Assembly (NCBI RefSeq): GCF_001514065.1
Contig: NZ_KQ948434.1
Location: forward strand, 230,900 to 294,899
Direction of reading: 5' to 3'
Length of the DNA stretch: 64,000 bases
Origin: Streptomyces antibioticus
Lineage (GTDB): Bacteria > Actinomycetota > Actinomycetes > Streptomycetales > Streptomycetaceae
The first letter of the stretch is position 1. Each line of letters opens with the position of its first letter. A program made the translations under genes and the position numbers. The notes beneath the pieces are model-generated. The model made no database searches. It saw only the letters and a program-made list of their open reading frames with translations, and was not told where the DNA came from. Of the stretch, positions 17,328 to 21,240 are shown piece after piece.

Positions 17328-18290
17328 TCAGGCCCTTGTGGGACCCGTCGTAAGGATCACGTTGCGCAAGGGCTCCTGGTTCACGAAACGCCCCAACTGA
17401 TCCACCAGCAACCGTTTTGCGCGCGGCAGAAAGGCGGACGTGGGTCCGCCGACGTGCGGGCTGATGAGCACGCCGGGCGCCTGCCAGAGCGGGTGTCCCT
17501 TGGGCAGGGGCTCGGGGTCGACCACGTCCAGGGCGGCGGTGAGGCGACCGGTCTCCAGCTCGGCGAGGAGCGCCTCGGTGTCGACGACGCCTCCGCGCGC
17601 GACGTTCACGAGGAGCGCGCCGTCCTTCATCCGGGCCAGGAACCCGGCGTTCACCAGGCCACGCGTGGAGTCATCGAGCGGCGTGGAGAGGATGACGACG
17701 TCCGCGTCGGGGAGCAGGGCGGGCAGGTCGGTGAGCGGGTGCACCGGTCCGCGCTCCGTGGTGCGCGCGGAGCGCGCGACGCGCGCCACCCGCGCGACCT
17801 CGAACGGCACGAGCCGGTCCTCGATCGCGGCGCCGATGGAGCCGTACCCGACGATGAGCACGTTTTTGTCGGCGAGGGCGGGGTGGAAGTCGCCCTGCCA
17901 GTGCTCCTGTTGCTGGGCCCGGACGAAGCCGGGGATGCCGCGCAGGGAGGCGAGGGTCAGGGTGAGGGCGAGCTCGGCGGTGCTGGCCTCGTGCACCCCG
18001 CGCGCGTTGCACAGCCGTACGCCGGGGGCGATGTCGGACAGCTGTGCCATGACGTCGTCGACGCCGGCGGTGAGCGTCTGGACGAACTGGAGGTTCCGCA
18101 TCTCCTTCAGCGGGCGGACCTTGACGGGCTGCCTCTTCATGTACGGCACGACGTAGACGACGCAGTCGGCCGGGTCGCCCGGGAACTCCTGCTCCCCTGT
18201 CTCACCCCCGTCCCAGAACAGGTAGTTCGGGCCCTCGGGGAGACCCGCGATCTCGTCCGGCGGGATGGGAAGCCACACGTCAGCGCTCAT
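17328..18290 (-). CDS. D-isomer-specific 2-hydroxyacid dehydrogenase
   Basis: This 320-residue NAD(P)-dependent enzyme of the lactate/phosphoglycerate dehydrogenase superfamily has the Rossmann motif VGYGSIGAAIEDRL near 144, catalytic Arg in NVARGGVVD near 230, and catalytic His in SPHVGGPTS near 278. It probably reduces 2-oxo acids of undetermined identity. It is a stand-alone gene, divergent from the aldo/keto reductase. ATG 18290 is preferred; GTG 18296 is two codons upstream. Confidence 0.88.
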   Translation of the reverse strand: MSADVWLPIPPDEIAGLPEGPNYLFWDGGETGEQEFPGDPADCVVYVVPYMKRQPVKVRPLKEMRNLQFVQTLTAGVDDVMAQLSDIAPGVRLCNARGVHEASTAELALTLTLASLRGIPGFVRAQQQEHWQGDFHPALADKNVLIVGYGSIGAAIEDRLVPFEVARVARVARSARTTERGPVHPLTDLPALLPDADVVILSTPLDDSTRGLVNAGFLARMKDGALLVNVARGGVVDTEALLAELETGRLTAALDVVDPEPLPKGHPLWQAPGVLISPHVGGPTSAFLPRAKRLLVDQLGRFVNQEPLRNVILTTGPTRA

Positions 18291-18367
18291 GGTCACGAGG
18301 CTATGTCAGGTGCGTGAGGACGCAGAGGTTAGGTTGTGGGGTGCCGGAAGAGGAGGGTCACGAGCAG

Positions 18368-19366
18368 GTGGAGCGCAGGACGATCGGCGCGGGGGCACTC
18401 GCGGTGGGGGCCGTCGGACTCGGCTGTATGCCGATGAGCTGGGCGTACAGCGGGTCACGGCAGCGGGGCGAGGAGTCGCTGCGGGCCGTGCACACAGCGC
18501 TCGACGCGGGCACGACGCTCCTGGACACGGCCGACATGTACGGCCCGTTCACCAACGAGCTGCTGGTGGGGCGGGTGTTGAAGGAGCGGCGCGCGGACGC
18601 GTTCGTGTCGACCAAGGTCGGCCTGCTGGTGGGCGAGCAGCACATCGTGGCCAACGGCCGCCCCGGGTACGTGAAACGGGCGTGCGACGCCTCACTGCGC
18701 CGCCTCCAGACCGACGTCATCGACCTCTACCAACTGCACCGCGCGGACCCCGAGGTCCCGGTCGAGGAGACCTGGGGCGCGATGGCGGAGCTGGTACGGG
18801 CCGGGAAGGTGCGGGCGCTGGGCTTCTGCGCGATGGGAGCGAGGGGCGGCCGCCGCTCCGGGGCTCATCTCTACGACGCGACGATCAGGCAACTGACACG
18901 GGTGCAGCAGGTCTTCCCGGTGAGCGCGGTGGAGGCGGAGCTGTCGGTGTGGTCGCCGGAGGCGCTGGAGTCCCTGCTGCCGTGGTGCGGGGCCCGGGGC
19001 ATCGGCTTCCTGGCGGCGATGCCGCTCGGCAACGGCTTCCTGACCGGCACGCTGACGCCCGGCGAGGGTTTCGAGCCGGACGACCTGCGCGCCCGGCACC
19101 CCCGCTTCACCGCCGAGATGATGGCCGCCAACCAGCCGATCATCGCGGGCCTGCGCCGCACGGCGGCCCGCCACGGCGAACACGTCACACCCGCCCAGGT
19201 GGCCCTGGCGTGGACCCTGGCCCAGGGCCCCCACGTGATCCCGATCCCGGGCACGAAACAGGAGCGGTGGGCCAGGGAGAACGCCGGTGCGGCGGACCTA
19301 CGACTGACGGCCCGGGACCTGACGGAGCTGCGGGAGCTGCCGGGGGCGTTGGGGTCGTGGGACTGA
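18368..19366 (+). CDS. Aldo/keto reductase
   Basis: This 332-residue NADPH-dependent TIM-barrel oxidoreductase belongs to the AKR11/YajO-like group. The catalytic tetrad is visible: Asp and Tyr in LLDTADMYGP, Lys in VSTKVG, His in YQLHRAD. The C-terminal cofactor motif is IPIPGTKQERWARENAGAA. I start at GTG 18368, with AGGAGGG ending 10 bases upstream and the first residues MERRTIGAGAL matching family N-termini; GTG 18314 is in frame but would add an unlikely extension. The stop codon falls exactly where the repeat array begins. Confidence 0.88.
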   Translation: MERRTIGAGALAVGAVGLGCMPMSWAYSGSRQRGEESLRAVHTALDAGTTLLDTADMYGPFTNELLVGRVLKERRADAFVSTKVGLLVGEQHIVANGRPGYVKRACDASLRRLQTDVIDLYQLHRADPEVPVEETWGAMAELVRAGKVRALGFCAMGARGGRRSGAHLYDATIRQLTRVQQVFPVSAVEAELSVWSPEALESLLPWCGARGIGFLAAMPLGNGFLTGTLTPGEGFEPDDLRARHPRFTAEMMAANQPIIAGLRRTAARHGEHVTPAQVALAWTLAQGPHVIPIPGTKQERWARENAGAADLRLTARDLTELRELPGALGSWD

Positions 19367-19955
19367 GGTCTGGGGGCGGGGGCAACGGGGTCCGGGGGCG
19401 GGGGCGACGAGGACGGGGCTCAGTTCCGGGGCGCGGGGGCGACGAGGTCCGGGGGCGGGGGCGACGAGGTCCGGGGGCGGGGGCGACGAGGTCCGGGGGC
19501 GGGGGCGACGAGGACGGGGCTCAGTTCCGGGGCGCGGGGGCGAGGAGTGCGGGGCTGCGTCCCACGGGGCGCGGGGGCGAAAGGGCCGGGGCTCACAGCC
19601 GAGGCCCGGGGGGCGAAGGCCCCAGGGCCGAGAACCACGGCCCTGCCGCCCAGGGCACGGGACTGAAACCCACAGCCCAGACGCGAAGAGCCGGTGCTGA
19701 GCCCCGAGGAACGGCGAGCGACAGACCCCCGACTGAGAAATACGGCTCGGCGCCACCCAGGGCCCGCGACTGAGATCCATGGCCTGGTGGCGAGGAGGCC
19801 GGGGGCTGAATCCACGGCCCAGAGGCGAAGCACCCGGGACGGAACCCACGGCCCAGACGCGGAAGTACCGGCGCTGAGATCCACAGCCCCGAGGCGAAGG
19901 ACCCGGGCGCTGTGATCCGCGTCCGGCGCGAGGAGTCACGGGCTGGGATCCTGGA
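19367..19955. repeat. Degenerate tandem array of about 35-bp units (minisatellite-like)
   Basis: This 689-bp gap between genes is filled for about 590 bp by related units 34-37 bp long, roughly 16-18 copies. Typical units begin CTGAGATCCACAGCCC and continue GAGGCGAAGGACCCGGGCG. Good copies start at about 19663, 19769, 19805, 19839 and 19873. The 5' part contains an exact 35-bp duplication (19406-19440 and 19507-19541) flanking three exact 22-bp units (19441-19462, 19463-19484, 19485-19506), which look like shortened copies. Unit lengths are not multiples of three, so it is not a coding repeat. The 5' part has many GGGGG runs on the plus strand, giving G-quadruplex potential. No reported element is recognised. 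Confidence 0.8.
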
Positions 19956-20055
19956 GGGGTGGGGGCGTTCCTGCATCGGCTCGTGGAGATCGGGAACCCG
20001 TGAGGCGCGAGCGGTGTATGAAAAGTAGAACCCGCCGCTTCGAAGGGACCAGATC

Positions 20056-21240
20056 GTGCAACGTCGAGTTGTGACGGCCGTGTTGGCCGCGACCACGCTT
20101 CTGCTGACGGCCGGCTGTTCCTCGGACGACGGCGGCGAAGGCCCCGCCGGTGGCGGTACGACGCCAGGCGGTACGACGCCAGGCGGTGCGGCGTCCAAGT
20201 CCGCGTCCTCCCCCAGCCGACAGGCCGCCGAGGAGACACCGCCCGCGAAGGGCTCGGTGAAGGTGCTGCGCACCGTCACCACCGGCCTGAACACCCCCTG
20301 GGGCCTGGCCCCACTGCCCGACGGCGACCTCCTGGTCTCCTCCAGGGACAAGGGGACCATCACCCGGGTCGACGCGGAGACCGGGAAGAAGACGGAGCTG
20401 GGCGAGGTCCCCGGGGTGTCCCCGGCGGGCGAGGGCGGTCTCCTGGGCCTGGCCCTCTCCCCCGACTACGCCTCGGACCACATGGTGTACGCCTACTTCA
20501 CCTCGGCCTCCGACAACCGCATCGTCCGCATGCTGTACGAGGAGCAGAAGCCGTCCGGCGAGCAGCTCGGCGCACCGGACACGGTCTTCAAGGGCATCCC
20601 GAAGGGCGTCATCCACAACGGCGGCCGGATCGCCTTCGGCCCCGACAAGATGCTCTACGCGGGCACCGGCGAGAGCGGCAACACCGGTCTGGCCCAGGAC
20701 AAGAAGTCCCTCGGCGGCAAGATCCTTCGCCTCACCCCGGAGGGCGAGCCGGCCCCGGGCAACCCGTTCCCCGGCTCCCCGGTGTACTCCTACGGCCACC
20801 GCAATGTGCAGGGCCTCGCCTGGGACGCCAAGCAGCGGCTGTTCGCCTCGGAGTTCGGCCAGGACACATGGGACGAGCTGAACGCGATCAAGCCGGGCGA
20901 CAACTACGGCTGGCCCGAGGCGGAGGGCAAGTCGGACGACTCCGGTTTCCACAATCCGACAGCCCAGTGGGCCACGGACGACGCCTCCCCCAGCGGCATC
21001 GCCTACGCCGAGGGCTCGATATGGATGGCGGGCCTCAAGGGCCAGCGCCTGTGGCGCATCCCGTTGAAGGGCACGGAGGCCTCCGCCGACCCGCAGTCGT
21101 TCCTGAAGGGCGAGTACGGCCGGCTGCGCACGGTGGTGTCGGCGGGCAGCGACAAGCTGTGGCTGGTCACCAGCAACACGGACGGGCGGGGGGACCCGAA
21201 GGAAGGGGACGACCGGATTCTGGAGCTCCAGGTGAGCTGA
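20056..21240 (+). CDS. PQQ-type glucose/sorbosone dehydrogenase family lipoprotein
   Basis: This 394-residue protein has a lipoprotein signal peptide (LLLTAGC, Cys at about residue 21), a Gly/Thr/Pro linker with the repeat PGGTTPGG, then a six-bladed beta-propeller of the GSDH/Yli I family. Visible motifs are the opening T-G-L-N-T-P-W-G-L-A, SPAGEGGLLGLALSP, NGGRIAFGPDKMLYAGTG and YSYGHRNVQGLAWD. It is an extracytoplasmic aldose-type dehydrogenase whose sugar and cofactor are unproven. GTG 20056 follows AAGGGA by 7 bases. It lies just downstream of the repeat array. Confidence 0.87.
   Translation: MQRRVVTAVLAATTLLLTAGCSSDDGGEGPAGGGTTPGGTTPGGAASKSASSPSRQAAEETPPAKGSVKVLRTVTTGLNTPWGLAPLPDGDLLVSSRDKGTITRVDAETGKKTELGEVPGVSPAGEGGLLGLALSPDYASDHMVYAYFTSASDNRIVRMLYEEQKPSGEQLGAPDTVFKGIPKGVIHNGGRIAFGPDKMLYAGTGESGNTGLAQDKKSLGGKILRLTPEGEPAPGNPFPGSPVYSYGHRNVQGLAWDAKQRLFASEFGQDTWDELNAIKPGDNYGWPEAEGKSDDSGFHNPTAQWATDDASPSGIAYAEGSIWMAGLKGQRLWRIPLKGTEASADPQSFLKGEYGRLRTVVSAGSDKLWLVTSNTDGRGDPKEGDDRILELQVS

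Follow-up and report, generated by a model that had tools for sequence, protein, structure and literature searches.

MIRU elements are linked to stop and start sites. In Mycobacterium tuberculosis their units measure 40–100 bp, often stand in tandem and are dispersed over 41 sites of one chromosome, according to the sections of PMC2734929 that deal with them. The same sections describe the intergenic VNTR between rnc and fpg1 (ETR-F/VNTR3239), which spans 279–358 bp, varies between strains, is linked to expression, and is present in one lineage and absent from the same gap of the other mycobacteria listed there (PMC2734929). The tandem repeats of archaeal Borgs are described as perfect, A-rich copies (passages of PMC9879509), and a survey of prokaryote satellites counts 38 satellites in S. 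coelicolor; its passages on that species deal with neither orthologous spacers nor arrays in decay (PMC6749651).

The array described here belongs to a Streptomyces genome of 10.1 Mb in 29 contigs and lies on contig 13, in a window (the whole stretch of DNA analysed) of 64,000 nucleotides. It fills the spacer from the stop codon of an aldo/keto reductase (AKR) gene to the promoter-like block of a glucose/sorbosone dehydrogenase (GSDH) gene, both read on the plus strand (Table 1). Its head-to-tail units fall within the range of about 10–100 bp of bacterial intergenic minisatellites and repeat above chance, and the array is non-coding and lies outside genes, between members of PF00248 and PF07995. 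Such a minisatellite is an ordinary, known kind of object; the interesting part is its recurrence at one spacer. Like ETR-F/VNTR3239, as portrayed in the passages cited, the array consists of tandem repeats in an actinobacterium, placed between one gene's stop codon and the gene that follows, and is limited to a lineage; it differs in being much decayed and in having been compared between species only, whereas ETR-F/VNTR3239 varies between strains and is linked to expression. It shares with MIRU elements its actinobacterial host and its tandem arrangement, but the unit of its 3′ part appears to have no convincing second site in the genome. Its units are GC-rich and mostly decayed, unlike the Borg repeats, and the S. 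coelicolor satellites provide a precedent for tandem arrays across a Streptomyces genome. A search of the mainly open-access literature by titles and abstract openings found no report of recurrent arrays at one orthologous Streptomyces spacer.

Table 1. Coordinates of the array and its flanking features in the window
Feature	Coordinates	Strand	Evidence
Aldo/keto reductase gene (AKR)	18314..19366	+	Pfam PF00248, E 1e-60
Array, 5′ part	19367..19583	+	TRF, unit placement, shuffles
Array, 3′ part	19584..19969	+	Lag 35 above shuffles; unit profile scores
Promoter-like block and leader of dehydrogenase gene	19987..20055	+	Motifs conserved among 104 species
Glucose/sorbosone dehydrogenase gene (GSDH)	20056..21240	+	Pfam PF07995, E 6.8e-72

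The 5′ border of the array is the TGA stop codon of the reductase gene (19364–19366), where the sequence-only reading of this stretch had also placed it. The reductase start may lie a few codons further downstream than given in Table 1, at 18341 according to our own gene finder, and a relative at E ≤ 1e-80 is present in 288 of 295 genomes of the genus, the source genome included. The promoter-like block forms the 3′ border: GGGAAC (19992–19997) is followed after 16 bp by GTGTATGA (20014–20021). The dehydrogenase gene begins with GTG, and its N-terminus, judged by eye, is lipoprotein-like.

Between these borders we placed 19 units by eye, in the order 22, 22, 35, 22, 22, 22, 35, 37, 35, 35, 35, 35, 37, 35, 35, 35, 34, 35 and 35 bp. 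Five units of 22 bp and fourteen of 34–37 bp, eleven of them exactly 35 bp, replace the earlier count of 16–18 units of 34–37 bp. Aligned with the 35-bp units, the short ones lack about 13 bp, and the consensus of all 14 long units is GGCCGGGGCTGAGATCCACGGCCCGGGGGCGAAG. TRF reports repeats of 101 bp (1.9 copies, score 336), 22 bp (4.0 copies, 98% match) and 34–35 bp (2.9–4.2 copies). Shuffle tests exclude chance for both halves of the array. Over 19367–19967 the self-match at lag 35 is 0.484, against a mean of 0.338 (sd 0.018, n = 1000) in dinucleotide shuffles, and the observed maximum over lags 10–139 is reached by 0 of 1000 shuffles; the degenerate 3′ part alone gives 0.441 against 0.311 (sd 0.025), with 0 of 1000 as high. 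TRF and the 1000 shuffles thus bear out a minisatellite-like tandem array after the reductase gene, with a unit shared beyond base composition.

The two parts of the array differ in state. The 5′ part is nearly clonal, with five 22-bp units (four identical, where three exact copies had been counted), two 35-bp units with one base difference and one 37-bp unit. It carries a 101-bp higher-order repeat and a 54-bp exact duplication (19389–19442 and 19490–19543), of which the exact 35-bp duplication noted earlier, correct in itself, is only a part. The 3′ part comprises 11 degenerate units of 34–37 bp that are strongly decayed and keep their spacing. The weakest are the last two (19900–19969), with scores of 14.8 and 14.3 on a profile that includes both units themselves; the background averages 8.4 (sd 1.8). 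Unit alignment and the exact duplication support the proposal of recent expansion at the 5′ end and a decayed 3′ part. Against the consensus, the 14 long units carry 142 substitutions in total (6 to 21 per unit) and three units are of other length; with few length changes and many substitutions, decay appears to proceed mainly by substitution. For wild-type mutation lines of S. ambofaciens, the relevant part of PMC11109965 gives 147 substitutions and 9 small indels.

The 601-bp array used as a query finds two weak matches in its own genome, both to the G-rich 5′ part, on contig 7 (E 3.2e-12) and contig 3 (E 1.2e-4). The contig 7 match scores 110 against 77.7 for 60 shuffles (sd 8.6, highest 96), about 3.7 sd and slightly above chance, and the signal is absent for the array's 3′ part. 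A query from the decayed region (19770–19920) gives eight matches in the genome: itself, one within the array and six elsewhere at E 0.06–0.71. Weak matches to the array occur in 24 of 40 other genomes; among the matches listed (60 besides the array itself), 56 fall within the G-rich opening 230 bases of the query. The plasmid collection gave no match to the array. A dispersed family or MIRU-like repeat was rejected on these grounds: the matches in other genomes are weak and mostly to the G-rich part, and the 3′ unit has no convincing second site. A CRISPR array was also rejected, since the units are contiguous rather than separated by unique spacers, the whole unit is repeated, and Rfam over 19200–20300 returns no match above any family's gathering score. 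On contig 7 (L021, 1600–2200), two different degenerate arrays adjoin in one spacer, as judged by eye.

Two long mechanical open reading frames span the array, 18265–19773 (+) and 19298–20239 (−), as they might if it belonged, on one strand or the other, to a gene for a repetitive protein. We give this practically no credence: the 22- and 35-bp units shift the frame, these two longest frames crossing the array have no Pfam match, and species that retain both neighbour genes show no conservation of the sequence. The array is accordingly treated as non-coding, in agreement with the sequence-only reading.

The orthologous spacer was taken from 104 species, one genome per species, and all comparisons are between species. 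One search supplied its 30 best loci and another the best 80 of its 589 stretches, a sample biased to near relatives; all 80 relatives from the second set are named Streptomyces. The initial 110 loci became 104 when L071, L108 and L124 (no dehydrogenase before the contig end) and L063, L067 and L121 (duplicates) were dropped. The shortest spacer measures 28 bp and the longest 799 bp. L059 has a misplaced dehydrogenase start, so that its true spacer is about 80 bp shorter than given, and the start looks odd in several other loci (e.g. L066, L069 and L078).

Lying directly after a stop codon and ahead of the next promoter-like block, the array could mark the transcription end of the reductase gene by means of many weak hairpins, one of the roles suggested earlier. 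This role is unsupported and we consider it unlikely. Stems followed by a T run, as in an intrinsic terminator, number 0 in 19200–20300 with 0.6 expected, and for neither strand does RNA folding of the array improve on that of 20 shuffles (z −0.40 and +0.25). Moreover, in 31 of the 104 species the distance from stop to start is at most 120 bp and is mostly taken up by the promoter-like block, which leaves little room for a terminator common to all.

The stretch that varies between species lies between the stop codon and the promoter-like block. GGGAAC is present in 94 of the 104 species and GTGTA[TA]GA in 79, and their spacing is exactly 16 bp in 68; the nearest relative, L059, is without the second motif. 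With the array just upstream of this conserved block, it might tune the dehydrogenase promoter through spacer length or copy number, by analogy with the rnc-fpg1 repeats of M. tuberculosis, whose length is linked to expression in the passages cited (PMC2734929). The block is mostly kept between species, however, while the sequence, strand composition, unit length and very presence of the array differ, and such tuning is improbable.

We called arrays from the gapped self-alignment score of each spacer of at least 60 bp relative to 12 shuffles per spacer (z > 4). Self-similar arrays occur in 32 of 101 such orthologous spacers. Compared as array bodies minus the last 75–95 bp, they fall into 22 groups with no detected similarity between them (z > 6), and the array of the window joins none of these (best z 3.2). 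The group of L055, L069 and L135 rests on a shared dispersed-looking repeat, and L056 and L057 were joined at a borderline z of 6.2. On a quick tree of the reductase gene, in which 29 of 101 inner branches are weak, the array was gained or lost at least 21 times and the group changed at least 25 times. Alignment of the window with its two nearest relatives (AKR identity 97% and 94%) is largely confined to the last unit and the promoter-like block. TRF makes a call in 20 of the 32 arrays; its best stretch can begin right at the stop codon (0 bp) but stays 84 bp or more away from the dehydrogenase start. These comparisons indicate that arrays of unrelated repeats arose repeatedly in the AKR–GSDH gap of related species. 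As separate observations, a sequence like GTGGCTGGTCGCGCAGTTCCCCGCGCCCCT, with variants, recurs after the reductase gene in L135, L069, L058 and L055, resembles a dispersed Streptomyces repeat and is part of the 96-bp unit of L135; the 799-bp spacer of L056 contains a run of CCCGT pentamers.

The G-rich plus strand with many G5 runs that had been pointed out is seen in the 5′ half of the window's array, on the coding strand (skew 0.21), and a G-rich DNA structure, either a G-quadruplex or an R-loop, could in principle be the selected trait. On the other strand, L135 has 2 quadruplex motifs against a shuffle mean of 0.07 and L056 has 2 against 0.20. The coding strand of the window has 2 motifs against a mean of 1.4 in mononucleotide shuffles (P 0.42), a coding-strand P under 0.05 is reported for none of the 32 arrays, and the same strand is C-rich in 10 of the 32. 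A selected structure of this type is very unlikely, and neither the folding scores nor the motif counts support the structure-forming spacer proposed earlier.

We judge it likely, with a probability of roughly 0.8, that the array is a locally born, private, non-coding minisatellite that grew by tandem duplication, decays by substitution, is bounded by the stop codon and the promoter, and has no dedicated function. It would have begun when a short piece of the DNA separating the reductase stop codon from the dehydrogenase promoter was tandemly duplicated and then multiplied, probably by slipped-strand replication or unequal recombination. Old copies would decay almost only through base substitution, so the 35-bp spacing survives, and at the 5′ end a variant shorter by 13 bp would have multiplied recently. 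The array is limited on one side by the stop codon and on the other by the promoter-like block, and it probably has no function of its own. The earlier suggestion of a slippage hot spot fares best among the proposed roles in that a duplication-prone site is the best fit to data that compare one genome per species. More broadly, Streptomyces spacers that tolerate extra DNA may repeatedly acquire arrays that are unrelated to one another. The 3′ end of the reductase gene itself may have been the seed in some lineages, because a duplication across the stop codon leaves the gene intact.

The AKR–GSDH spacer carries arrays more often than other spacers of the same loci. Among spacers of 250 bp or more, arrays are present in 21 of 26 at this site and in 60 of 242 elsewhere; for 150 bp or more the counts are 30 of 52 and 71 of 398 (p 3.6e-9). 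When the site is represented by the best-80-of-589 loci alone, the difference holds at 150 bp or more (13/30 versus 71/398, p 0.002) and weakens to p 0.08 at 60 bp or more with z > 4. TRF scores of 100 or more occur in 6 of 71 spacers here and 20 of 831 others. Genes in these loci were called by our own GC-frame finder, which missed some, and the 25 arrays classed as 'non-coding' include one tRNA and apparent coding repeats. Length-matched spacers of 180–350 bp were sorted into bins of like orientation and like distance to the reductase stop codon, a stand-in for orthology, and range from 0 of 30 to 7 of 17 arrays per bin (heterogeneity p 3.6e-7), with 10 of 24 for the AKR–GSDH spacer. Some other nearby spacers are thus array-prone too, whereas others of similar length almost never carry arrays.

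Arrays are common across whole genomes: in three sampled genomes, with 8 shuffles per spacer, 70 of 562 spacers of 150–1200 bp have a self-alignment z > 6 (33/327, 18/105 and 19/130). A preferred period near 35 bp is unsupported, as the lags of these array spacers run from 15 to 188, many of them 15–27. When the 35 array spacers of one genome (G000) were compared pairwise, a few pairs reached z values up to 11.

Copies of the reductase 3′ end are found in the arrays of a few relatives. The last 45–60 bp of the gene recur inside the array of L102 (S. flaveolus) and of the sister pair L051/L054, with scores of 58–62 that are the best of all gene windows; the stop codon within the copy is intact in L051/L054 and changed by one base in L102. 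L056 has a copy of a reductase stretch that stops 55 bp short of the last base of the stop codon. A similar origin of the window's own array had been suspected by eye and is unsupported by the score tests (p 0.23), in which 20% of window positions score as high. The gene-window test covered 68 of the 104 spacers, the remainder being too short. Among the gene windows, the 3′ end scores best in 4 of 32 array spacers and in 4 of 36 non-array spacers, and reaches p ≤ 0.01 in 4 of 32 and 1 of 36, respectively. Since it is best about as often in non-array spacers, the case for seeding rests on a few strong examples.

Across the three genomes, copies of a gene's 3′ end in the adjoining spacer are more frequent than copies of a 5′ end: 13 of 436 versus 6 of 688 at z > 4 (p 0.008), 12 of 436 versus 1 of 688 at z > 5 (p 9e-5) and 7 versus 0 at z > 7 (p 0.001). 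One 3′-end case, L199, resembles a second, missed gene; removal of the doubtful case and a double count leaves 10 versus 1 at z > 5 (p 5e-4). Only 5 of the 12 copies at z > 5 lie in array spacers (self z > 6), and in the neighbourhoods of the relatives 3′-end copies are rare (4/452 versus 0/344 for 5′ ends at z > 4). Spacers of all lengths that adjoin a gene 3′ end carry arrays in 50 of 362 cases, and divergent spacers in 20 of 200 (p 0.23); under 400 bp, a cut chosen post hoc, the counts are 32 of 266 and 4 of 137 (p 0.0016). Arrays do not lie significantly closer to the stop than to the start (15 versus 9, p 0.31).

A wider interpretation is that Streptomyces spacers divide into array-prone and array-free ones, and that repeated birth of arrays, partly via 3′-end duplication, is a main route of intergenic growth. 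We hold this only tentatively, and slightly less so in view of the non-array controls for 3′-end copies. Should our reading of the array be right, this single orthologous spacer supplies about twenty natural replicates of array gain or loss, cleanly bordered by a stop codon and a promoter and with close array-free relatives as controls, so that birth, growth and decay of bacterial minisatellites become comparable. It would also counsel caution against reading G-rich, repeat-rich spacers as regulatory RNAs or genes.

Two further duplications at predicted gene ends were seen. At L141 (16846–17212), a 184-bp tandem duplication, 99% identical, runs across the ends of two convergent predicted genes. 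At L202 (414–666), the final 60 bp of a predicted gene, with its stop codon, recur exactly in a copy that begins about 100 bp downstream of the gene.
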